Shown here: positions 27,106 to 43,932 of the stretch, piece by piece | Position numbering within the stretch: the stretch's first letter is position 1 | How the letters are laid out: each line of letters starts with the position of its first letter | Assembly (NCBI GenBank): GCA_902797035.1 | Contig: CADBRH010000085.1 | Span: 1 to 45,283, forward strand | Reading direction: 5' to 3' | From: an uncultured Bacteroidia bacterium | GTDB taxonomy: Bacteria > Bacteroidota > Bacteroidia > Bacteroidales > UBA932 | Length of the DNA: 45,283 nt | Notes under the pieces: model-generated | What the model saw: the letters and a program-made list of their open reading frames with translations, nothing else | Databases searched by the model: none | What the model was told of the DNA's origin: nothing | Translations under genes and position numbers: made by a program

Positions 27106-30054
27106 ATGAGACATTCCTCCTTCCTTGTCGTTATCGCTTCCGCTTTTATCGTGGCCGGGTGCGACTTGCCAAAGAACGAGCCGGTCGATTATGTGAATCC
27201 ATACGCCGGTAATATAAGCCATCTGCTGGTGCCGACCTACCCGACCGTGCAACTCCCGAACTCGATGTTGAGGGTCTATCCGGAGCGTTCGGACTACACT
27301 TCCGAATATCTCGACGGCCTTCCGGTCATCGTCACCAACCACAGGGAGCGCTCCGCCTTCAAGTTGTCCGTCGCCCCCCCGTCAGAGATCGCCGAGGGGC
27401 CGGTCATCCCCATGTCCTACGATAACGAGCGCCTGACCCCGTATTCGTTCGACGTGACGCTCACTGACGGGAAGATCCGCGCGAGGTACGCCCTTTCGCG
27501 TCAAAGCGCTGTCTATTCACTGGAGAGCGACGAGCCTCTGAGGGTTATCCTCTCCAGTAGGGGAGGAGAGGTCTCTTGGAACGGTGAGGCCCTTGAAGGA
27601 TGGCAGCCCGTTGAGGATGAGACAAAGGTTTATGTCTATATGGAGCCGGAGGCTCCCCCGGCGACAGTGTACACCGCCAGCAAGGGGAGCAGCCGTTGGG
27701 TGACCCTCCGTTTTGACAAGCCTTCGGTGAGGCTGCGCTACGGCGTGTCCTTCATAGACGTGGCCCAGGCCAAGACGAACCTCCATAGGGAGCTGAAGGA
27801 TTATGACGTGGATGCCCTCGCCGCCGAGGGAAGGAAGGTCTGGAACGAGACTCTGGGAAGGATATCCGTCAAAGGCCCCGAGAAGCGCAAGAGGGTTTTC
27901 TACACCTCGTATTACAGAACTTTCGAGAGGCCAGTGTGTCTTAGCGAGGACGGCCGATACTGGAGCGGATTCGACAATACCGTCCACGAGGACGGCGGCG
28001 TTCCATTCTATTCGGATGACTGGATCTGGGACACCTACAGGGCAGCGCACCCGCTCCGGACACTTATGGACCAACCGCTTGAGGAGAATATCCTCGCGTC
28101 TTTCCTTAGGATGGCGGAGCAGATGGGCACTGGCTGGATGCCGACCTTCCCGGAGGTCAGCGGTGACTCCAGGAGGATGAATAGCAACCACGCCATCCCC
28201 TCGTTCGCCGACGCTGTGGCCAAAGGCTTGAAAGTTGATGCCACGGCGGCCTTTGAGGCTGGCCGGAAGGCTTTGAGGGAGAAGACATTGGCTCCTTGGT
28301 GCGGGAATCCGGCCGGATTGGTTGACGAGTTCTATTGGGAGAACGGCTATATCCCCGCCTTGCGTGAGGGGGAGCCTGAGACCGATCCCAACGTCCACGG
28401 TTTCGAGAAGCGTCAGCCGGTTGCTGTGAGCCTCGGGACCGCCTATGACGCCTGGGCGCTTTCCAAGCTCGCCGAGGCCTCCGGGAGGCCGGATGAGGCG
28501 GCTTTCTATTCGGAATGGTCGCGAAACTACCGCAAACTCTTCAACCCCGAGACTCTGTTCTTCCATCCCCTCGACAAGGATGGTGAGTTCATCCCGGACA
28601 TTGACTACAACTTCCCGGGAGGCATGGGGGCTCGTGAATATTACGACGAGAACAATGCCTGGGTTTATCGTTGGGACGTCCAGCATGATATTCCGGGACT
28701 GGTCACTTTGATGGGCGGCCCGGACCGCTTCTGTAGGGAGCTGGACAGGATGTTCGCCACTCCGCTCGGAAGGAGCAAGTACGGTTTCTACGCCAAACTT
28801 CCCGATCACACCGGCAACGTGGGCCAGTTCTCGATGGCGAACGAGCCGTCGCTCCACGTGCCTTATTTGTACAACTATGCCGGCGCCCCGTGGAAGACCC
28901 AGAAGAGGGTCCGGCAGATGCTGGACACATGGTTCCGTGACGACCTTATGGGCGTCCCCGGCGACGAGGACGGCGGCGGGATGACCTCCTTCGTGGTCTT
29001 CTCCTCCCTTGGTCTCTATCCTGTGACCCCCGGTGATCCGGTCTACACCATAGGCAGCCCTGTTTTCGCCGAGGCCGCTATGACTCTATCCAACGGTAAA
29101 GTATTCAAGATCATAGCCAAGGACGTCTCGGATGAGAACAAGTATATCCAATCCGCCACCCTGAACGGTGAGCCGCTGGAAGGCCCCTGGATCACCCACG
29201 AGGAGATTATGTCGGGAGGAATCTTGACCTTGGAGATGGGACCTCTCCCGAACAAAGAATGGGGAGCGGTCACCCTTCAGGACAAGAAAGAGTGGGACGC
29301 CGCTATCTGGAAGTGGAACGATATCGGCGACGGGATCGAATACACCTACGCCCAGTTTCCGTTCAGGGGCAAGACGCAGAGCGTCAGCATCGTGAGGTAC
29401 CCGGCCTATAAGTTGGAGACGTCCTTCGTCCACGCCCCCGGAGAGGAGGCGGCAGGAACCGACTCGCTGGCGATCAGGACAGGCGCCCGCGTGGCTATCA
29501 ACGGGAGTTACTTCAATATGAGAAGGCTTATCCCCCACACCTTCTTCTCGATTGGCGGCAAGGTGGTCGGCCAGACCCCTAAGACCGAGATCCAGCGCTC
29601 CAACGGTGTGCTCGCGTTCAAGGATAAGGAGGGTCACATAATGGAGATAATCCCGTATGACTCAACACGTCTGGAAATATTCAGGACTGAGTTTCATTCC
29701 GCCCTCGCCTCCGGCCCGATCCTGAGGCTCGACGGCAAGACACCAGACTTCCCGAACGACAAGTCCTTCTTCCAAATGCGTCACCCCAGGACCTTTATGG
29801 GCTGGGACGACAAGGGAATGGTGTATATGGTCGTCGTGGACGGCCGTTTCCCCGGCCAGGCCGACGGGATGAGCGTTCCCGAGCTGGCCACGGTCTGCAG
29901 GCTTCTGGGCTTGAAAGACGCTATTAACCTGGACGGGGGAGGTTCCTCCACTCTCTGGACCGACACAACCGGGGTCGTCAATTACCCCTATGACAACCGC
30001 AAGTTCGACCACGAGGGCACCCGAAAGGTCCCGAATATCGTGATCGCGAAGTAG
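27106..30054 (+). CDS. GH92 alpha-mannosidase fused to a phosphodiester glycosidase (NAGPA/DUF2233) domain
   Basis: A 982-aa lipoprotein (Cys after FIVAG). Residues ~25-715 are GH92: VDYVNPYAG at the start of the N-terminal sandwich, then the barrel with [54 protein letters not shown] (Glu of NEPS is the expected acid) and [20 protein letters not shown] (acidic base region). Residues ~760-982 are a NAGPA-type phosphodiester glycosidase: INGSYFN near 797, [29 protein letters not shown] and [12 protein letters not shown] near 941. GH92 enzymes are Ca2+-dependent exo-alpha-mannosidases; NAGPA-type domains cleave sugar-phosphodiesters. The glycine-rich, PG-containing N-terminal motif of standard GH92 is altered here. 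It follows the TonB/OB operon but a terminator lies between. Confidence 0.88.
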
Positions 30055-31873: not shown

Positions 31874-33331
31874 CTATCTGACGACCGGCTTGTACTTCGG
31901 CACGAGCGCTTTCATCACGATCCATGAAATGAGGTACGCGAGGCCGCAGTAGCAGAATATTATGAAATATCCCGCGGGCTTTCCCTCGAACCCAAGGAAA
32001 TGGAAGGAAGCTCCCGCTTTCTCCGCGAAAGTGAAAAGGTTGCCGGCGATCTTCTGTAGGGCCATGGTGGATATGCCGCCGGCGAGTGAGCACATTCCCG
32101 TCAATGTGCCGATGGTGCTTTTGGGGAAGAGATCCGAAATGAAACTGTAGGTGTTTGCCGCCCAGGCGGAGTGTCCGGCGGCCGCGAGACCGATCAGTAT
32201 GGCCGGCCACCAAGGGGTGTTGAACCAGGCGCCCATAGGCTGGGCGAATATGGCCATCAGCGGGAACATGGCGAAAATAAGCATCGCCCTCATTCGGGCG
32301 TCGAAGGGGTGCATGCCCTTCTTCTCGACGAAATGTTTGGGGACATATCCGCCGAAAATGGACAGGACCGCGCAGATGGCGTAGAGCGTGATCAGCAGGA
32401 GTTTCCCCCTCGGTGTTGTCGCCTTGGCTCCGAATTCCGTGTCGAAATATGACGGGGCCCAGAAAAGGAAGAACCACCACACGCAGTCGGAGATAAATTT
32501 GTTGAGGATGGCCGCCCAGGCCTGGCGGTGTCTGAGGCATTCCCGGATCGACATGCTCTTCTCGGCCGCGACCGCGGCTTTCTCGGCCGCCTCCTCTGCG
32601 TCGTCCTGATGAATATAATCAAGCTCGGCCTCGTTGACCTTCGGGTGGGACTCCGGCTTGTCGTACATAAACGCCCAGAAGAAGACCCAGATGAACCCCA
32701 GGGCGCCGATGATGATGAAAGCCATCTCCCATCCCATATTCTTGGCTAGCGGCGGGATGCAGAGGGGGGCGGCGAGCGCCCCGATTGAGGATCCGGCGTT
32801 GAATATCGCGGTGGCGAAGGCCCGGTCTTTCTTCGGGAAATACTCCGCGGTGACTTTTATGGCCGCGGGGAAGTTGCCTGCCTCTCCAAGCGCCAGCACT
32901 CCCCGCCATAGCATGAACAGATAGACGGAGGTGGTCGAGATGGCCAAGGCGATCTCGCTACCGGCCTTGACAGCCTTAAGGGCAGCGGCGGACTCCAGAC
33001 CAGTCACCGAGGCGGTCAGCGCTCCGGTGGTGGCGTGGAGAACCGCGCCCAGCGACCAGACGCAGATTGAGATGATGTACCCCTTCTTTACCCCTATCCA
33101 GTCGATGAACTTTCCGGCGAACAGGCAGCAGATGGCGTAGAACAGGGAGAAGAACCCTGTCACGGTGCCGTATTCGGCGTCAGTCCAGTGGAACTCGGGC
33201 TTGATGAATTCCTCGTAGGTCAGGGAAAGGACCTGGCGGTCCAGATAATTGACGGTCGTGGCGAAAAAGAGCAACGAGCAGATCCACCAACGGAACGAGG
33301 TCATCGGGGAGGTTTGGTCAGTCTTTCTCAT
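31874..33331 (-). CDS. MFS transporter, ExuT-like (anion:cation symporter family)
   Basis: A 485-aa twelve-helix permease. The opening FFATTVNYLDRQVLSLTYEEFIKPEFHW is typical of the hexuronate/galacturonate (ExuT) branch, as are LWRGVLALGEAGNFPAAIKV and WAPSYFDTEFG. Helical segments are separated by a central cytoplasmic loop rich in Ala, Glu and Lys (DDAEEAAEKAAVAAEKS). Its 5' end overlaps the 3' end of the upstream URO-D gene by 14 bases, so it belongs to the same transcript as the corrinoid methyltransferase genes. The transported compound is therefore plausibly the methylated substrate of that system, such as a sugar acid, but this is inference from family and position. Confidence 0.85.
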   Translation of the reverse strand: MRKTDQTSPMTSFRWWICSLLFFATTVNYLDRQVLSLTYEEFIKPEFHWTDAEYGTVTGFFSLFYAICCLFAGKFIDWIGVKKGYIISICVWSLGAVLHATTGALTASVTGLESAAALKAVKAGSEIALAISTTSVYLFMLWRGVLALGEAGNFPAAIKVTAEYFPKKDRAFATAIFNAGSSIGALAAPLCIPPLAKNMGWEMAFIIIGALGFIWVFFWAFMYDKPESHPKVNEAELDYIHQDDAEEAAEKAAVAAEKSMSIRECLRHRQAWAAILNKFISDCVWWFFLFWAPSYFDTEFGAKATTPRGKLLLITLYAICAVLSIFGGYVPKHFVEKKGMHPFDARMRAMLIFAMFPLMAIFAQPMGAWFNTPWWPAILIGLAAAGHSAWAANTYSFISDLFPKSTIGTLTGMCSLAGGISTMALQKIAGNLFTFAEKAGASFHFLGFEGKPAGYFIIFCYCGLAYLISWIVMKALVPKYKPVVR

Positions 33332-34295
33332 TGTAGTCCTTAAGAGCCTGGTAGAAAGCCTGGATGTTCACAAAAGGCGTGCGAGGGGGGACGTCGCAAC
33401 CAGTCGAGAGGATGAAGTTGTCAAATTCCCTTGTCTTGTCAAGCAGTTCGCTGACAGCGGAGTAGACCTTCTCCGGAGTACCCTGCCGCATCACTCCCGA
33501 TGGGTCGATATTCCCCAAGACCGGCATGTCGGGAGGACATGTGTTCAGGGCCTCCACCATGTCCGCCCGGTTCCCGAAATGGAGGGCCGAGGCCCCGGAC
33601 CGGAGCATGGCGCCGGTGCAGTGGCCGGTATTGCCGCAGTTATGTAAAACGATGGAGAAGCTATCGTCCTGGACGGCCTGGACAATCTTCCGGACATAGA
33701 CGGATGAATATTGATAACAATCGTCGTCAGACACCAGTCCGGCCGCCGGCTCGGCCAGAATCACTCCGTTTATCCCGGTCTCTTTCATCGCCAGCAGGTA
33801 GGAGGTTATGAACGCCGCGCACTTGTCCAGCAGAAGGGTCACGGTCTCAGGCTCGATGTACATGGCCATCATCAGCTCCGACATGTCGTAGAGCCTTCCG
33901 GCCAGGGAGAAGGGACCGATGCATCCGCCAAAGACCTTCTTGTCCTTTATCGCCGAAGCCACTATCCTGTTGGCTTTCAGATATTCCCGCACTCTTCCCT
34001 TGTCGAGGGAGGGAACCTCTAGAGCCTCGACAGACTCGCGGTCCTCTACCAGTCTTCCTATCACGTTCGGGATCTCGTCCTCCGAGAAGCGGATCTCCGC
34101 TCCGAAAGCCTCGGCCTCCACGGTGAGGTCCATGATGGCTGTCACGGCGTCGGCCGGGAATCGCTTGTTAAGCGCGATGATAGCGTCGGCGTGGGCCTGC
34201 CCGTCGGTCACGGCCTTCAGCACAGTGCCGCCGCCAAGCTCGATCCCGGGATGGGTCATTATAGGGATGACTAGGCGTTTCTTCTTTTGTAACAT
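33318..34295 (-). CDS. URO-D-fold corrinoid methyltransferase, MtaA/CmuA-like (second methyltransferase)
   Basis: A 325-aa protein of the uroporphyrinogen decarboxylase superfamily. It has the zinc-thiolate pattern of MtaA/MtbA/CmuA methyltransferases: His-x-Cys in SIVLHNCGNTGHC and a distal Cys in ILSTGCDVPPRTP. Other landmarks are THPGIELGGGTVL at the N-terminus, GGCIGPFSLAGRL, and PVLGNIDPSGVMRQGTPE. Such proteins move a methyl group from a corrinoid carrier to an acceptor. I start at the ATG at 34295 (MLQKKKRLVIPIMTHPG); the open frame extends upstream to 34469 but that part overlaps the preceding gene and is not conserved-looking. The start overlaps the upstream activation-domain gene by 25 bases. 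The acceptor (tetrahydrofolate or another) is unknown. Confidence 0.85.
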   Translation of the reverse strand: MLQKKKRLVIPIMTHPGIELGGGTVLKAVTDGQAHADAIIALNKRFPADAVTAIMDLTVEAEAFGAEIRFSEDEIPNVIGRLVEDRESVEALEVPSLDKGRVREYLKANRIVASAIKDKKVFGGCIGPFSLAGRLYDMSELMMAMYIEPETVTLLLDKCAAFITSYLLAMKETGINGVILAEPAAGLVSDDDCYQYSSVYVRKIVQAVQDDSFSIVLHNCGNTGHCTGAMLRSGASALHFGNRADMVEALNTCPPDMPVLGNIDPSGVMRQGTPEKVYSAVSELLDKTREFDNFILSTGCDVPPRTPFVNIQAFYQALKDYNEKD

Positions 34296-34933
34296 CTTGT
34301 GTTCCTGCAGATTTGGCAATGGTATGGCTGACGTTGCAGAGTCTCCCCGAGGGCGAAGAAACCGCTGACAGACTTCTCGGGGGTCATAAGAGACGATTCG
34401 GAGAGGATCACCCCGCATGGCCGCTCCGGGAACAGGGAGAACAGCAGATGCTGCTCCCGGATGTCCCAATTGCAGTAACCTGGGCTGTATGGCATCGAGA
34501 GGGGCCCCGGGCCGTCATATTCCTTCTCCATCCGGCTGACCGTCATCTCGGCCAGGACGCTCCCGATGGAGTCGGCGATGAAATCGGCGACAATGTCCCC
34601 GTTGGCTTTCAGTTCTTCCTTAGCCCTGTCATATTCCCAGCCGGCGGTGCCGATGAAGAGCAGGGCATGTGTCATCCCCTTGAGGTAAGAGCAGATAATC
34701 CCTTCCGGAGTGAAGGTTTTCCCGGCGAAACGGACCTGTCTCGGAGACAGCTTCTCCGCCTCGACGACCTGATAGATGTATCTTAGCGTGGCTTTCGGCA
34801 CAAGCTCGTCCCTGACGGCGAGGGCCATCTCCCTCACCCTCTCGTCAGGCGCGGAGTCCTTGTAGCCCATCGCGAACCAGATCTCCTTCTCGGACACCTC
34901 GTCCGGGCTTATCCGGAAAGCCTTCTCAACCAT
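34271..34933 (-). CDS. MetH activation-domain protein (corrinoid reactivation candidate)
   Basis: A 220-aa stand-alone relative of the C-terminal SAM-binding activation domain of cobalamin-dependent methionine synthase. The key element is CGVILSESSLMTPEKSVSGF, with MxPxxSVSG as in MetH-type reactivation domains; GTAGWEYDRAKEE and YSPGYCNWDIREQHLL also fit. In MetH this domain reductively remethylates oxidised cob(II)alamin using SAM. The C-terminus ends in a cysteine cluster, CQICRNTRC (C-x2-C-x4-C), absent from MetH, which could hold iron-sulfur or metal. It overlaps the corrinoid protein stop by one base and the next gene start by 25 bases. I infer that it keeps the neighbouring corrinoid protein active. 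Confidence 0.85.
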   Translation of the reverse strand: MVEKAFRISPDEVSEKEIWFAMGYKDSAPDERVREMALAVRDELVPKATLRYIYQVVEAEKLSPRQVRFAGKTFTPEGIICSYLKGMTHALLFIGTAGWEYDRAKEELKANGDIVADFIADSIGSVLAEMTVSRMEKEYDGPGPLSMPYSPGYCNWDIREQHLLFSLFPERPCGVILSESSLMTPEKSVSGFFALGETLQRQPYHCQICRNTRCYKRRNA

Positions 34934-35550
34934 CAGGACAGCAGTTTCTTGGCCACAACTACAGCCTCGTTGGCGTTGGAGCTGTACCCGTCGGCGCCGA
35001 TTCCGTCGGCGAACTCCTGGTTGAGCGGGGCGCCGCCGACCATGACCTTAACATTCAGCCCGTCGGCCCTGACAGCGTCCACGACCTCCTTCATGTAGTC
35101 CATGGTGGTCGTCAAGAGGGCTGAAAGGCAGATGATGTCGGCGTTGTTCTCCTTGGCCGCCTCGATGAAGCGTTCCTTTGAGACATCGGTACCGAGGTTG
35201 ATGACCTTGAAGCCGCGTCCCTCGAGCATCGACGCCACGAGGTTCTTGCCGATGTCGTGGAGGTCTCCCTTGACCGTGCCGATGACCACGGTGCCGATGG
35301 TGGTGGTCTGTCCGGCCAGCATCAAGGGCTTCAGGATGTCCAGGGCCGACTTCATCGCCCTGGCGCTGAGCAGGAGATTGGGAACGAACACCCTGCCCGC
35401 CTCGAACTCCTGTCCTATGGCTTCCATGGCGGGGATCATCGACTCGTCGATGATCCCCTGGGGGGTCTTGCCCTTGTCCAGGGATTCCTGGACGGCGGTT
35501 TTGGCCATTGGGGCCATGCCTTTGAATATGGCTTGGTAAAGATTGTCCAT
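34933..35550 (-). CDS. Corrinoid (B12-binding) methyl-carrier protein
   Basis: A 205-aa two-domain carrier like MtaC/MtbC. The N-terminal helical cap (~1-85) carries GRVFVPNLLLSARAMKSALD. The C-terminal Rossmann domain has the base-off cobalamin motif DxHxxG in KGDLHDIGKNLVASMLEGRG, followed by VINLGTDVS, LSALLTTTMDYMKE and MVGGAPLNQEFADGIGADGY. The His of DLHDIG should be the lower cobalt ligand. It is flanked by a URO-D methyltransferase upstream (one base between) and the MetH-type activation protein downstream (one-base overlap), the expected carrier in the middle of a three-component methyl-transfer relay. Confidence 0.92.
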   Translation of the reverse strand: MDNLYQAIFKGMAPMAKTAVQESLDKGKTPQGIIDESMIPAMEAIGQEFEAGRVFVPNLLLSARAMKSALDILKPLMLAGQTTTIGTVVIGTVKGDLHDIGKNLVASMLEGRGFKVINLGTDVSKERFIEAAKENNADIICLSALLTTTMDYMKEVVDAVRADGLNVKVMVGGAPLNQEFADGIGADGYSSNANEAVVVAKKLLS

Positions 35551-35551
35551 A

Positions 35552-36811
35552 TTATGAGCGTATTTCTTTCAATGTGTCCATCAGGGCGACCACGTTCTCG
35601 ACGGGGACATTTGCCTGGATGTTGTGGACGGTGTTATAGACGAAGCCGCCGCCTTTCCCGAATATCTCGCATAGACTCAGGACTTCCTCGCGGACCTGGG
35701 CGGGCGTTCCAAAGGGGAGGGTTTTCTGCGTGTCCACGCCTCCTCCCCAGAAGGTGACCCTGTCCCCGAACTCGTCTTTGAGCCTTTGAGGATCCATGTC
35801 CTTAGCGGCGATCTGGACGGGATTGATGATGTCGAAACCGGCGTTGATGAGACTGTCCATCAGGGGATAGATGGCTCCGCAGCAATGCTTGAATGTCTTC
35901 CAGGGGGTGTGCTGGTGGATCCAGTCGTTCATCCTCTTGTAATAAGGGACGAATAGCTCGTTGAGGGTGTCGACGGAAAGGAACTGGCTGGTCTGCGTGC
36001 CGAAATCGGCGCCGCAGACATAGACCACGTCCACATTGTCCCCGACGACTGAATAGATCTTCTCGAGATTCCTGACCGCGAGAGCGGAGATCCGGTCAAA
36101 GAGTTCTTTGATATAGTCCGGACGGCAGACGGTGGACATGTACCACTCCGCCACGCTCCTGATGCCGCGGGGCTCCCTGATCGCCGGGGAGATAATACGC
36201 GCCACATCGCCGAGGGCCATTCCTCCGAACCCGGCCACTACGGCCCTGCCTGTACCGGCGGCCCTGTCAGTCACCGTCTTCCAGTAGGAGAGGGTCTCGT
36301 CGTCGATCTCCCCGAACTCCTGTAGGTTATCCTCCACGTTGAGGTTGTCATCGTCGATCTCACCTTTCTGTCGCTCGATCGAGTCGAAGAAATAGCACCT
36401 CTCGGGCATATGGCAGGACGGAGGAAGGGATTTGTCACCCTCGGGGTAGGAATACAGTCCCCCGTCCTTCTCGGTGAACGAGTCCACCATCTTGGCTGGC
36501 AGCATCACCACCTGTCCCCAGGGCATCCGATATTCCTTCCAGTCCTTGTTCCAGACCCCGATGGAGTTCTTCGGGGAGAAACAGCCGGCGGTGTCGGTCC
36601 CGAGGGCCTCGGCGAGGTCATTCTCGATGTAGCCGAGCATCTGGCCCGGCTCATGGACATAGACCGGATGGTCGTCCAGCCCGTAGTGTCTCCGGAGAGC
36701 CTCGACCACCTTACAATGGATCCCTGTCACGGGCGTCGTCCCGAAATCCACAGCGACACGGTCCGCCTCCCTATGCTCAAGAACAGTCCTGACCCTTTCT
36801 CTTCCAGTCAT
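35552..36811 (-). CDS. URO-D-fold methyltransferase, probable substrate-specific component
   Basis: A 419-aa member of the uroporphyrinogen decarboxylase superfamily, larger than heme-pathway HemE and lacking a HemE-like N-terminus. It starts MTGRERVRTVLEHREADRVA, typical of the corrinoid methyltransferase branch. Potential metal ligands are HCC in TFKHCCGAIYPL. Other landmarks are VVYVCGADFGTQTSQFLS and FWGGGVDTQKTLPFGTP. Unlike the second URO-D protein it lacks the distal GC cysteine, so the two probably have different jobs: this one removes methyl from the substrate, the other hands it on. It begins nine bases after purL ends and one base before the corrinoid gene. Substrate unknown. Confidence 0.82.
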   Translation of the reverse strand: MTGRERVRTVLEHREADRVAVDFGTTPVTGIHCKVVEALRRHYGLDDHPVYVHEPGQMLGYIENDLAEALGTDTAGCFSPKNSIGVWNKDWKEYRMPWGQVVMLPAKMVDSFTEKDGGLYSYPEGDKSLPPSCHMPERCYFFDSIERQKGEIDDDNLNVEDNLQEFGEIDDETLSYWKTVTDRAAGTGRAVVAGFGGMALGDVARIISPAIREPRGIRSVAEWYMSTVCRPDYIKELFDRISALAVRNLEKIYSVVGDNVDVVYVCGADFGTQTSQFLSVDTLNELFVPYYKRMNDWIHQHTPWKTFKHCCGAIYPLMDSLINAGFDIINPVQIAAKDMDPQRLKDEFGDRVTFWGGGVDTQKTLPFGTPAQVREEVLSLCEIFGKGGGFVYNTVHNIQANVPVENVVALMDTLKEIRS

Positions 36812-41195: not shown

Positions 41196-41990
41196 TTATT
41201 TGTTTTCCGCCGCTTCCACGGCTTTGAAATAACGGTATGAGTTCACTTTAAGCTCTCCGGCGGCGGGCTCGTCAAGAACGACGATCCCGTTCTCGTGGAG
41301 TTGCAGGGCGGACAGGGTGACATAGTGGCTGACTGAGCCTTCCACGGCCTGGGCCACGACTCTGGCCTTCTTGCTTCCGAAGGCGAGAATCAGGACCTCC
41401 GCGGCGTCGCGCACGGTGGCGACACCCACGGACATCGCTTGTCTGGGAACCTGGCTGGTGTCACCCCCGAAGAACCGGGAATTCACTTCGATGGTGTCCT
41501 GGGTCAGGGTGACTACCCTGGTCCTGGAATTGATAGAGGAGAAAGGCTCGTTGAAAGCGAGGTGCCCGTCCTCTCCCACGCCTCCGAGGAAGAGGTCGAT
41601 ACCGCCGGCCCGGACAATGGCCTTCTCATAGTCCTCGCACTCCTTCTGGAGATCGGGGGCGTTCCCGTTGAGAATGTGGATATTGCCCGCCGGGATATCG
41701 ATCTTGTCGAAGAGGTTCTTGTACATGAAACTGTGGTAACTCTCAGGATGCTTCTCGGGAATCCCCACATATTCATCCATATTGAAAGTTATCACGTTCT
41801 TGAACGAAACCTCTCCGGCGGCGCACATCCTCGCCAGCTCGGCGTAAGTGTCCAGAGGAGTGGATCCTGTGGGAAGCCCCAGGACAAAAGGCTCGTCTGT
41901 CCGTTCGGCCTTGGCCTTGATGGCCTCGGCGATGTGGCGGGCCGCCCAGATGGAGGCCTCTTTCTTGCAGTCTCTGATTATTACTCTCAT
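41196..41990 (-). CDS. nagB: Glucosamine-6-phosphate deaminase
   Basis: Converts glucosamine-6-phosphate to fructose-6-phosphate and ammonia in the cytoplasm, the entry of amino sugars into glycolysis. At 264 aa it is full length. The substrate loop GLPTGSTPLDTYAEL, the base Asp72 in FNMDEYVG and the ring-opening set Asp141-His143-Glu148 in GVGEDGHLAFNEP are all present, with numbering equal to that of E. coli NagB. It follows seven bases after the stop of a larger NagB/PIG-L fusion, so the two deaminase-like genes are co-transcribed. Confidence 0.96.
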   Translation of the reverse strand: MRVIIRDCKKEASIWAARHIAEAIKAKAERTDEPFVLGLPTGSTPLDTYAELARMCAAGEVSFKNVITFNMDEYVGIPEKHPESYHSFMYKNLFDKIDIPAGNIHILNGNAPDLQKECEDYEKAIVRAGGIDLFLGGVGEDGHLAFNEPFSSINSRTRVVTLTQDTIEVNSRFFGGDTSQVPRQAMSVGVATVRDAAEVLILAFGSKKARVVAQAVEGSVSHYVTLSALQLHENGIVVLDEPAAGELKVNSYRYFKAVEAAENK

Positions 41991-41997
41991 GATCAGG

Positions 41998-43932
41998 TTA
42001 TTTTAGTTTCAGGAATACTTCTATCGCTTGATATTCTGCCATGCCCAACTCGTCGTAGAGCTTGGCCGTGTTCTGGGTGCGCTCCTCGGCCCTCTGCCAG
42101 AACTCCCTCGGGTCGTCTCCGGGGAAGGGGACGATGTCCTTTTGGGAGAGGTGGCGGAATATGGCGTGGCGCTTCTCGATGAGCTCGTCGGGACTGAGAG
42201 GCACGGCCATATCGACCCTCCAAAGCTCCCACTCCATCCAGGCGCCCCTGTAGAGCCATACCGTGGTGTTGTCAAGCCAGTCGTGACCTTCCTCTTTCAG
42301 CTGCTCGATAGCCTCGAGAGCCGCCTCGGTGCATACCCTGTGAGTGCCGTGGGGATCAGCCAGATCGCCTGCCATGTAGATCTGGTCAGGCCTGACTTTG
42401 GCGATAAGGTCCTTGATTATATCAAGATCGACTTGGGTGCGGGGGAGTTTCGTCACGCCGCCCGACTCATAGAACGGCAGGTTGAGGAAGTGCACATTTG
42501 TGTTGTCGTTGAGACCGAAACTCCGCACGGCCCCGCGCGCCTCGCTGCGACGGATCGCGGCCTTTATCGCCAGCAACTCTTTCGGCTCAGGCTCTCCGGG
42601 TGTCTTTGAAGAGATAATCCCCTTAACCTCGTCGAACCTGTCTCCGAACCCGAGCTGCCTCGCCGCGTCCATATGCTGGAGGACCACATCGTCATGCACG
42701 GCCAGGTCTCCGGATGTCTCGTAAGCCACATGCACGTCGTGACCCTGGTGGACCAGACGGATAAAGGTGCCTCCCATAGAGATCACGTCATCGTCCGGGT
42801 GGGGCGAGAAGATGAGAACCTTCTTGGGGAAGGGCGTGGACTTGACAGGCCTCGTGGAGTCGTCAGCGTTCGGTTTCCCGCCGGGCCATCCCGTGATGGT
42901 GTGCTGGAACTCGTTGAATATGTCGATGTTGATCTTGTCGAAGGGCCCGAACAGCTCAAGCAACTCCCCGAGGGAGTTCTCCAGATAGTCTTTCTGGGTG
43001 AGTTTCAGGATCGGCTTATGTACCTTCTCACAAAGCCATACCACGGCCTTGCGGACTAGTTTGGGAGTCCAATCGCAGGGACCCACGGTCCAAGGGGCGA
43101 CAACCCTTGTCAGCGATGAGGCCGAGATCTCGTCGGTGAAGAAACTCACATTATCATGCCTTTGGAGGAAAGAGGCGGGGTATGAGGGGTCAACCCTTCC
43201 TTCCACGACGCTCTTGACCACGTCGGCTTTCTTCTCTCCCCAAGCCATGAGGATGATCCTCTTGGCGCTCATGATAGTCCCTACTCCGATGGTGATGGCC
43301 GATTTGGGAGTGACGGTCACATCCCCGTTGAAGTTCCTGGCCTGCCTTTTCCTCGATTGGTAGGAAAGAGGCACGGTGCGGGTCCTGGATTTCTCCGGCG
43401 CGCCTGACTCGTTGAAGCCGATCTGACCACCTTCCCCGACACCAAGCACAAGCAGGTCCAGCCCCTGGGCGATCCTGTCGAACTCGGCGCAATATTCCGA
43501 AACTTTCTCCTGCGGCACGGTGCCGTCGGGAACATGGATATTCTCCGGTCGGATATCCACCTTGTCGAGAAACTCCTTATAGAGACGGTTGTTTCTTCTC
43601 TGGGCGACTTCCTCTCCGCAAGGATAGTACTCGTCGATGGAGAACACTTCCACGCCGTCGAAAGACAATGCTCCCTCGTTGTGTTTGATGACCAGCCATC
43701 TGAACAGTGACACGGGAGAAGTCCCGGTGGAAAGCCCGAGCTTGAACGGGCGGTTCGGAGAGGATTTCCTGTGATCGTCGATCGCCTTGATGATTATCTC
43801 GGCGATCCTCTCGCTGCCTGCGGTCGAGTCGACAAATATCTCAGTCGTGATTTTCTCGTGTGAGTGCAGGATGCCTTTCGGGAGATTCTCCTCGATAAGG
43901 CCTCCGTCTTTAGGAAGTGAGAAATGCTTCAT
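41998..43932 (-). CDS. NagB-like domain fused to a PIG-L (LmbE) deacetylase domain
   Basis: A 644-aa two-domain protein known in Bacteroidota and often annotated as glucosamine-6-phosphate deaminase. Residues ~1-290 are NagB-like (GLSTGTSPVSLFRWL, VFSIDEYYPCG), a linker follows, and residues ~370-600 are PIG-L with the zinc motif SPHPDDDVISMGG near 378 and DPHGTHR near 526. PIG-L enzymes remove N-acetyl groups from GlcNAc derivatives. In the NagB part the usual GxGxDGHIGFNE reads GVGEGGQIGFNE: Asp becomes Gly168 and the ring-opening His becomes Gln170, while Asp100 of IDEY and Glu175 are kept. The deaminase half may thus be altered or only substrate-binding. It is followed by intact nagB. Confidence 0.88.
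   Translation of the reverse strand: MKHFSLPKDGGLIEENLPKGILHSHEKITTEIFVDSTAGSERIAEIIIKAIDDHRKSSPNRPFKLGLSTGTSPVSLFRWLVIKHNEGALSFDGVEVFSIDEYYPCGEEVAQRRNNRLYKEFLDKVDIRPENIHVPDGTVPQEKVSEYCAEFDRIAQGLDLLVLGVGEGGQIGFNESGAPEKSRTRTVPLSYQSRKRQARNFNGDVTVTPKSAITIGVGTIMSAKRIILMAWGEKKADVVKSVVEGRVDPSYPASFLQRHDNVSFFTDEISASSLTRVVAPWTVGPCDWTPKLVRKAVVWLCEKVHKPILKLTQKDYLENSLGELLELFGPFDKINIDIFNEFQHTITGWPGGKPNADDSTRPVKSTPFPKKVLIFSPHPDDDVISMGGTFIRLVHQGHDVHVAYETSGDLAVHDDVVLQHMDAARQLGFGDRFDEVKGIISSKTPGEPEPKELLAIKAAIRRSEARGAVRSFGLNDNTNVHFLNLPFYESGGVTKLPRTQVDLDIIKDLIAKVRPDQIYMAGDLADPHGTHRVCTEAALEAIEQLKEEGHDWLDNTTVWLYRGAWMEWELWRVDMAVPLSPDELIEKRHAIFRHLSQKDIVPFPGDDPREFWQRAEERTQNTAKLYDELGMAEYQAIEVFLKLK

Follow-up and report, generated by a model that had tools for sequence, protein, structure and literature searches.

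Which compound is demethylated, and where does its methyl group go, when genes for corrinoid-dependent methyl transfer lie beside a transporter of the sugar-acid type? This question is raised by a five-gene operon (encoding P0001 to P0005) on a stretch of 45,283 nucleotides, here called the window, which is the whole contig C85 (CADBRH010000085.1) of an uncultured Bacteroidia bacterium with relatives among rumen Bacteroidales (genome G000; assembly GCA_902797035.1, 2.27 Mb in 113 contigs, 83.85% complete). The rumen and the gut receive large amounts of methyl ethers on plant polysaccharides, the 4-O-methylglucuronate of xylan being one example, and how anaerobes remove them is, as far as we know, an open question. 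UroD-type demethylases have been described for aromatic ethers and chloromethane (PMC13222342; this and the other papers are cited here from excerpts).

The operon is proposed to encode an O-demethylation system that depends on a corrinoid and provides methyl groups for methionine synthesis, a reading that we hold at about even confidence. The evidence comes from the operon itself, its conservation in relatives, the co-occurrence of P0001 homologues with corrinoid proteins, and the state of the methionine route in genomes that carry the operon.

The operon and its encoded proteins

Five open reading frames (ORFs) run closely spaced on the minus strand from 36811 to 31874: a 1-base gap separates the first two, and the junctions that follow overlap by 1, 25, and 14 bases. 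The purL gene lies upstream and ends 8 bases before P0001. The features are:

35552..36811, minus strand: P0001 (419 amino acids), UroD-fold protein, proposed substrate:corrinoid methyltransferase; PF01208 55.5 bits, residues 216-416; model confidence (pLDDT) 93.8; best PDB fold 4ay8
35885..35887, minus strand: P0001 His309 codon, proposed metal ligand; His in all 81 family sequences, in part by ascertainment
35879..35881, minus strand: P0001 Cys311 codon, proposed metal ligand; Cys in 81 of 81
35624..35626, minus strand: P0001 His396 codon, at the position of the third Cys of MtaA-type proteins (placed by eye); His in 80 of 80 with a residue there
34933..35550, minus strand: P0002 (205 amino acids), stand-alone corrinoid protein with cap and B12-binding domain; PF02310, PF02607; nearest NCBIfam MtgC/pyl_corrinoid, below cut-off
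35248..35265, minus strand: P0002 DLHDIG corrinoid-ligand motif; invariant in 12 aligned relatives
34271..34933, minus strand: P0003 (220 amino acids), MetH-type corrinoid activation protein with a conserved Cys-rich C-terminus; PF02965 29.8 bits, cut-off 25
33318..34295, minus strand: P0004 (325 amino acids, counted from the ATG at 34295), MtaA/CmuA-like UroD-fold protein with a His-Cys-Cys site; PF01208 197.9 bits; mtaA_cmuA 147.6 bits, below cut-off
31874..33331, minus strand: P0005 (485 amino acids), major facilitator superfamily (MFS) permease, galactonate/hexuronate branch; MFS_1; TIGR00893 188 bits, cut-off 395; best PDB match D-galactonate transporter

The Pfam families are, from P0001 to P0005, URO-D, B12-binding with B12-binding_2, Met_synt_B12, URO-D, and MFS_1. 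The best NCBIfam subfamilies are MtaA/CmuA for P0004 and TIGR00893 (D-galactonate transporter branch) for P0005, and P0003 has no NCBIfam match. Scores of P0001, P0002, P0004, and P0005 are below the curated NCBIfam cut-offs, and therefore indicate a branch rather than a substrate. An initial annotation, made from the window alone, had named five overlapping or near-abutting minus-strand genes of these families, which the ORFs and the Pfam and NCBIfam matches bear out; the motifs it listed, DLHDIG (35265-35248), MTPEKSVSG in P0003, and HNC...GC in P0004, are all present.

P0002 combines the cap domain and the D-x-H-x-x-G motif of corrinoid proteins. Its PF02965 score marks P0003 as a probable corrinoid activation protein; the MTPEKSVSG motif is mostly retained among the aligned relatives, and C154, C206, C209, and C214 are invariant in 10 of them. 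P0003 (window 34271-34933) and its relatives share an invariant C-terminal C-x2-C-x4-C cluster as well as a common SPGYC motif, which suggest a bound metal or iron-sulfur cluster, a feature not known to us from MetH activation domains.

All aligned relatives keep the His, Cys, and Cys of P0004, and alignment with the MtaA-type structure 4ay7 retains all three site positions. Its structural model is weaker (pLDDT 77.7) and matches UroD and MtaA-type structures alike, while the hemE model TIGR01464 gives 75 bits against a cut-off of 303. Close copies have a median ratio of nonsynonymous to synonymous substitution rates (dN/dS) of 0.055 (19 of 28 pairs, the remaining pairs being saturated). P0004 may act as another acceptor, or else as another donor enzyme.

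The P0001 family

P0001 was aligned with three relatives from its family, and a contig scan with this alignment located 97 stretches encoding a relative; the 80 best of them serve as loci here. Twelve are close loci (L016-L027), with P0001 80-95% identical, from metagenome-assembled genomes of goat, buffalo, yak, and reindeer stomach or from RUG-type isolates, as named in the records. The other 68 are distant loci (L028-L095; 44-58% identical), recorded under Bacteroidota, Spirochaetes, Clostridia, Kiritimatiellales, Planctomycetes, Acidobacteria, and others. The family is found in many bacteria, often next to sugar-utilization genes. H309 and C311 are identical throughout the 81 family sequences, and H396 in the 80 that have a residue there; one of the two scan peptides includes H309, so that its invariance is in part an effect of ascertainment. 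Close copies of P0001 have a median dN/dS of about 0.04 (40 of 55 pairs, the others being saturated).

The first fold matches of the P0001 model (mean pLDDT 93.8) were 4ay8 and 4ay7, followed by UroD structures, so that the best solved match is a methylcobalamin:coenzyme M methyltransferase. With this methyltransferase as the best fold match, and no match to the hemE equivalog model TIGR01464 at E<=0.001, identity of P0001 with HemE was rejected; a grouping with HemE, together with action as a decarboxylase, was one of the outcomes that the initial annotation had named as fatal to its proposal. Identity with an ordinary MtaA was rejected as well, since the MtaA/CmuA models match the C-terminal half alone, at 33-42 bits, and a His apparently stands in for the third Cys. 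A profile of the family had no match at E<=0.01 among PDB sequences, CdmB included.

According to the by-eye placement, His396 apparently replaces the third Cys of MtaA-type proteins. His-Cys-Cys sites go with S-methyltransferases, and O-methyltransferases swap one or both Cys for carboxylates or non-coordinating residues, His being unnamed in the excerpt (Kountz and Balskus, PMC10418091). In a FastTree tree of the family, the rumen forms, the Parabacteroides forms, most MtaB-linked forms, and some lone forms make up one clade with a support of 0.995, outside of which L081 and L089 fall.

Gene order and corrinoid proteins in relatives

Gene order was surveyed by tblastn (E<=1e-6) in close and distant loci. 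Nine of the 12 close loci reach the end of the operon, L019, L021, and L022 being interrupted by contig ends. All nine have the transporter (matched in two pieces in L024), and eight have the five genes in the same order; L026 is the full-length close locus without P0004. The upstream neighbor is purL-like (by eye) in L016, L017, L018, L020, and L021, as in the window. Among the 68 distant loci the transporter query had no match, not even in three Parabacteroides loci (L029, L034, L086) in which the UroD, corrinoid, activation, and MtaA-like genes lie together, and conservation of the transporter everywhere with the cassette was accordingly rejected. One carrier of this four-gene version, which also has MetH, is Parabacteroides gordonii. 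Homologues of P0001, P0002, and P0003 occur together in close, Parabacteroides, and Tannerella/Prevotellaceae-type loci. A corrinoid homologue is within range in 11 of the 68 distant loci, many of the other 57 being on short contigs.

The initial annotation had proposed a corrinoid methyl-transfer pathway that imports a methylated compound, possibly a sugar acid, to be checked by the recurrence of the five-gene order in other genomes and by conservation of the transporter with the other four genes. The order does recur, in eight of nine full-length close loci, and a methyl-transfer set with a sugar-acid-type transporter is supported. The link to the transporter is kept in the nine close loci and was not found in the distant ones, so that its absence there goes halfway toward one of the outcomes that had been named as a refutation; a likely methyl sink was missed.

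An MtaB gene lies near the P0001 homologue in eight distant loci, seven of them from Bacteroidia, Tannerella, Prevotellaceae, or Symbiothrix (L031, L032, L038, L040, L042, L047, L076) and one from Treponema (L081). MtaB is a methanol:corrinoid methyltransferase, and at these loci it could run in reverse, releasing methanol from methylated sugars.

In a chosen set of 36 genomes (G000 and the genomes of 35 of the 80 loci, six with the corrinoid gene in the operon) a corrinoid-domain match was found in all 36. It was stand-alone in 35, counting the fragments in G167 and G172 and a weak match in G169, and in G154 the domain is in MetH alone. A small activation protein was found in 19 of the 36. 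A wider survey covered 295 Bacteroidales genomes, with a P0001 homologue called at E<=1e-90 in 17. Among the matches listed, stand-alone corrinoid proteins are present in 14 of these 17 carriers (not in G317, G408, and G428) versus 28 of the 278 other genomes (Fisher p 8e-11, or 5e-10 without G000; kinship uncorrected), with strong matches in long frames of G392 and G293 left out of the count.

Twenty regions around such corrinoid genes contain varied acceptor modules, unnamed genes being judged by eye: a methyl-folate:corrinoid methyltransferase, a protein with a methylenetetrahydrofolate reductase (MTHFR) domain, FTHFS, and an AcsV-like activator in L102; a homocysteine S-methyltransferase in L101; MtaB in L097, L101, and L112; and MtaA-like proteins in L096, L099, and L111. 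DUF1638-like genes, recognized by eye, lie near P0001 homologues or corrinoid genes of their genomes (L055: 8573-9325; L060: 5548-6036; L105: 3762-4556; L107: 3960-4715).

The methionine route in operon-bearing genomes

The methionine route was surveyed in 23 genomes: 11 with the operon (G000 and the genomes of L016, L017, L018, L020, L021, and L023-L027; L019 and L022 were left out), 10 operon-free genomes of the same genus, and two of Parabacteroides. The genus label applies to the 10 operon-free genomes, the kinship of the 10 locus genomes to G000 being known by P0001 only. MTHFR was found in one of the 11 operon-bearing genomes (G476) versus nine of the 10 operon-free ones (not G084), and in both Parabacteroides. 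MetE (PF01717) was found in none of the 23 genomes, with 10 of 14 control genomes positive, and the catalytic domain of the Mes family is thus missing. The homocysteine methyltransferase domain S-methyl_trans is in frames of more than 1100 amino acids in nine of the 10 operon-free genomes, both Parabacteroides, and G476. Eight of the 11 operon-bearing genomes have it in frames of 431-526 amino acids (G000, G149, G150, G477, G478, G479, G480, G481), with a second frame of 791 amino acids in G481. No frame above 800 amino acids with this domain was found in 10 of the 11, and no S-methyl_trans match at all in operon-bearing G475 and G151 or operon-free G084. MTHFR and MetE are therefore absent while a homocysteine methyltransferase is kept in eight of the 11 operon-bearing genomes (not G476, G475, and G151). 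Beside its MetH stump, G481 encodes a 738-amino-acid protein (L124: 4608-6821) with homocysteine methyltransferase and MetH activation domains and no B12 or pterin match.

The frame in G000 (L116: 4711-6201, minus strand; 496 amino acids, away from contig ends) covers positions 3-485 of the 1182 of the metH model, and S-methyl_trans is its sole Pfam domain, in place of the four of MetH (homocysteine, pterin, B12, and activation). Compared with MetH of the same genus, this stump retains the GGCCGT segment, its folate-site segments are degraded, and the remainder is missing. Weak pterin-domain matches, over about half of the model, persist in six relatives. The dN/dS is about 0.08 for the homocysteine part versus 0.17 for the folate remnant, at a dS near 1. 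Pterin-binding PF00809 has one match in G000, a 278-amino-acid frame of dihydropteroate-synthase size, and no separate methyltransferase II was found in this 83.85% complete genome. Tetrahydrofolate as methyl acceptor in G000 is unsupported, with neither MTHFR nor a separate pterin-type methyltransferase found there. Enzymes of PF01053, which includes homocysteine-forming enzymes, match strongly in nine of the 11 operon-bearing genomes (a partial frame in G000), and metK on the window contig was also counted in favor of a methionine sink. A family survey found S-methyl_trans in 106 of 149 genomes, and the idea that short homocysteine S-methyltransferases are exclusive to operon carriers was rejected, as operon-free genomes have short frames too.

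MTHFR and the folate and B12 domains of MetH are absent from most operon-bearing genomes. Since the lineage of the window is apparently without MTHFR and most of MetH, the likely methyl sink is methionine synthesis, and the pattern, as far as sequences can tell, points to this rather than to catabolic methylotrophy.

Sugar-acid and pectin genes near the operon and its relatives

In L026, a 2-keto-3-deoxy-6-phosphogluconate (KDPG) aldolase gene (PRK07114, 365 bits, cut-off 275) begins nine bases past the transporter, and some 4.2 kb upstream of the operon there is a PfkB kinase gene that best matches models of the 2-keto-3-deoxygluconate (KDG) kinase type, below their cut-offs. Between kinase and operon, on the opposite strand, are FecCD, TonB-receptor, and DUF5074 lipoprotein genes, which may serve corrinoid supply. 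In L027, two genes of glycoside hydrolase family 28 (GH28) lie upstream, with one ORF between, and end four bases before the P0001 homologue. The aldolase and GH28 genes favor a uronate substrate.

Neighbors of the distant P0001 homologues were collected from 58 of the 68 distant loci (195 proteins of at least 150 amino acids, in the same gene run and within four genes, partner homologues removed). Two Pfam scans were summed, counting among the top 25 families of each, and one protein may match several; there was no matched control. On these terms the set includes at least 12 MFS_1, at least nine each of Sugar_tr, Peripla_BP_4, BPD_transp_2, and adh_short, at least eight GH120 insertion domains, at least six GFO_IDH_MocA, at least five xylose-isomerase-like barrels, and at least four Fe-ADH matches. 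GH120 genes and sugar transporters thus adjoin distant P0001 homologues, GH120 in nine loci by BLAST cluster and in several separate branches of the tree. The sugar-acid transporter, which the initial annotation had taken as the clue to the substrate, gains weight from the aldolase and KDG-kinase-like genes of L026, GH28 in L027, and GH120 at distant loci.

The substrate class would follow from the permease branch, from the two relatives with uronate or pectin genes, and from the sugar-locus setting of the wider family. 4-O-Methylglucuronate itself is a guess, prompted by its being the usual methylated uronic acid in the xylan of forage.

A P0001 paralogue (44% identical over residues 216-416) in G107, of the genus of the window, directly adjoins an ExuT-like permease (L012: 8035-10560), with an alginate-lyase-like gene and, by eye, an aldo/keto reductase and a RhaM-like gene nearby; no corrinoid gene was recognized in the 19 kb read. 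In Spirochaetes (L059, L064, L075, L080, L083), the P0001 homologue is within a recurrent cluster with varying subsets of an rbs-type ABC transporter, iron alcohol dehydrogenase, SMP-30 lactonase, short-chain dehydrogenase/reductase, IclR regulator, and transketolase-like genes, some of them assigned by eye; the cluster may encode a sugar pathway that has not been described.

Proposed mechanism and alternatives

We infer catalysis, substrate, methyl sink, and direction of flow as follows. P0005 would bring in an organic anion that bears an O-methyl group, a methylated hexuronate such as 4-O-methylglucuronate being the likeliest. P0001 would move the methyl group from this substrate to the corrinoid of P0002, in its Co(I) state, and P0003 would reactivate the corrinoid after oxidation, as the activation domain of MetH does. 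Homocysteine would be the next acceptor, on the truncated MetH stump, which is encoded away from the operon; P0004 may share this role or take it over. The freed uronate would enter the KDG/KDPG route. The operon would in this way replace the route through MTHFR, methyl-folate, and MetH, which has apparently been lost in the lineage.

Several observations weigh against this proposal. It leaves P0004 unexplained, and one operon-bearing genome (G476) has full MetH and MTHFR. Parabacteroides, with the four-gene version, has both as well, so that methionine supply cannot be the sole role. In G478 and G479 weak PF01053 matches alone were found, which makes the homocysteine supply uncertain there. 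Frames as long as the stump occur in operon-free genomes (G042, 503 amino acids; G105, 442; G066, 602), as do short ones (321-346 amino acids in G014, G079, G134, and G144; also G067 and G074). Judged by P0001, the genomes with the operon seem to form a single clade, so that the loss may have been one event, and G000 is no more than 83.85% complete. The corrinoid gene is missing between P0001 and P0003 in L021 (G477), none is in range in 57 of 68 distant loci, and uronate or pectin genes lie beside the operon in two of the 12 close loci.

Some of the evidence fits the same enzymes with another sink, the sugar acid being demethylated for use of the sugar and the methyl group leaving via P0004 on a thiol other than homocysteine, to be excreted. 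The lineage would then be a methionine auxotroph, and the MetH stump a relic or a user of another donor such as S-methylmethionine. The P0004-containing version in Parabacteroides alongside full MetH and MTHFR agrees with this, as do the His-Cys-Cys site of P0004, linked to sulfur substrates, and operon-bearing G475 and G151, which are without S-methyl_trans and count equally against a methionine sink; so does operon-free G084, without MetH and MTHFR, which means that loss alone is possible in the genus. However, the homocysteine domain of the stump is more constrained than the folate remnant, strong PF01053 enzymes persist in most operon-bearing genomes, and P0004 is not always needed, given that L026 is without it while its genome keeps a 428-amino-acid homocysteine methyltransferase. 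We consider this alternative unlikely, though worth keeping in view.

Permeases of the P0005 branch carry varied organic anions, and the substrate might accordingly be a methoxylated aromatic acid (vanillate, syringate, or ferulate) instead of a sugar acid; the known UroD-superfamily O-demethylases act on methoxylated aromatics in the excerpt of PMC13222342. P0005, however, scores 188 bits with TIGR00893 versus 47 bits with the aromatic-acid symporter model TIGR00895, the nameable neighbors of the P0001 family are mostly sugar-related, and the P0001 profile is without a CdmB match, which together make an aromatic substrate distinctly improbable. Least probable, to the point of being remote, is that the set handles methylated sulfur or selenium compounds, a role proposed for type 1 mlp clusters, with P0004 on the donor side. 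P0004 is indeed MtaA-like, has His-Cys-Cys, and adjoins the corrinoid and activation genes, but it is the single MtaA-like protein and is absent from L026, no Ram/RACE-type activator was matched, and P0001 has His-Cys-His.

Comparison with known systems

The O-demethylation system proposed here is a variation on known corrinoid methyl-transfer and folate-independent methionine systems. As excerpted, the nearest precedent is MtgBCDE of Ruegeria pomeroyi, in which one corrinoid protein couples demethylation of an imported compound to methionine synthesis on a separate homocysteine module (PMC12478193). It differs in its substrate (glycine betaine), its pfam06253 methyltransferase, its retained MtgD pterin module and MetF, and its aerobic host, whereas the operon of the window has a UroD-fold enzyme and no MTHFR was found in its genome. 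MesA, MesB, and MesC likewise methylate homocysteine from methylcobalamin or a methyl-corrinoid protein without methyl-folate (PMC7857596, in part); these core methionine synthases derive from MetE, whose PF01717 was found in none of the 23 genomes. By comparison, the homocysteine module here is a decayed MetH, and the proposed methyl source a methyl ether.

CdmBCA, MtvB, OdmB, VdmB, and MtoB share the combination of a UroD-superfamily methyltransferase I and a corrinoid protein, but pass the methyl group to tetrahydrofolate via methyltransferase II, as far as excerpted (PMC13222342). No separate pterin-type methyltransferase II was found in G000, and an acetogen-type O-demethylase set was rejected on this ground. 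Type 1 mlp clusters also bring together UroD-fold proteins, a corrinoid protein, and an activator without a folate methyltransferase; they have at least two MtaA-like proteins, nearly always His-Cys-Cys, and a Ram/RACE activator (PMC10418091, excerpt), in contrast to one MtaA-like protein, His-Cys-His in P0001, and a MetH-type activation protein here. MtaA-like is defined there by more than 25% identity to characterized SCMT, and was judged here by model scores instead of identities. With the second MtaA-like protein and the Ram/RACE activator missing (P0003 matches PF02965 alone), assignment to the type 1 mlp clusters was rejected. The methanol system MtaABC resembles the operon in its MtaA, which P0004 is like, and MtaB lies near P0001 homologues in the eight distant loci; it differs in that no MtaB (PF12176) was found in the five window proteins or the 12 close loci. 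Searches of the open-licence PMC literature found no description of a UroD-fold enzyme of sugar loci combined with a decayed MetH and missing MTHFR.

Other genes of the window

The contig also has cysS and a fusion of a GH92 glycosidase with a phosphodiester glycosidase (NAGPA) domain (27106-30054). A glucosamine-6-phosphate isomerase domain is fused to a PIG-L deacetylase domain at 41998-43932, and a second, single-domain NagB-like gene (41196-41990, by eye) adjoins this fusion.

Implications

A broader proposal is that P0001 represents a widespread family of B12-dependent demethylases for O-methylated sugars or sugar acids, in Bacteroidota, Spirochaetes, Clostridia, Planctomycetes, and others, and that in the lineage of the window it replaces methyl-folate as the methyl source for methionine. 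These demethylases would do anaerobically what the P450 route, known for 6-O-methylgalactose (PMC10033563, in part), does for methylated algal sugars. We put this joint reading forward tentatively, leaning somewhat against it. A UroD-fold family in sugar loci that co-occurs with corrinoid proteins is nevertheless a concrete candidate for the anaerobic removal of methyl ethers. If the methyl group does feed methionine, a ruminant-associated lineage would have come to rely on a methyl ether from the diet in place of the folate route, and plant cell-wall chemistry and B12 supply would be tied to the synthesis of methionine and S-adenosylmethionine.

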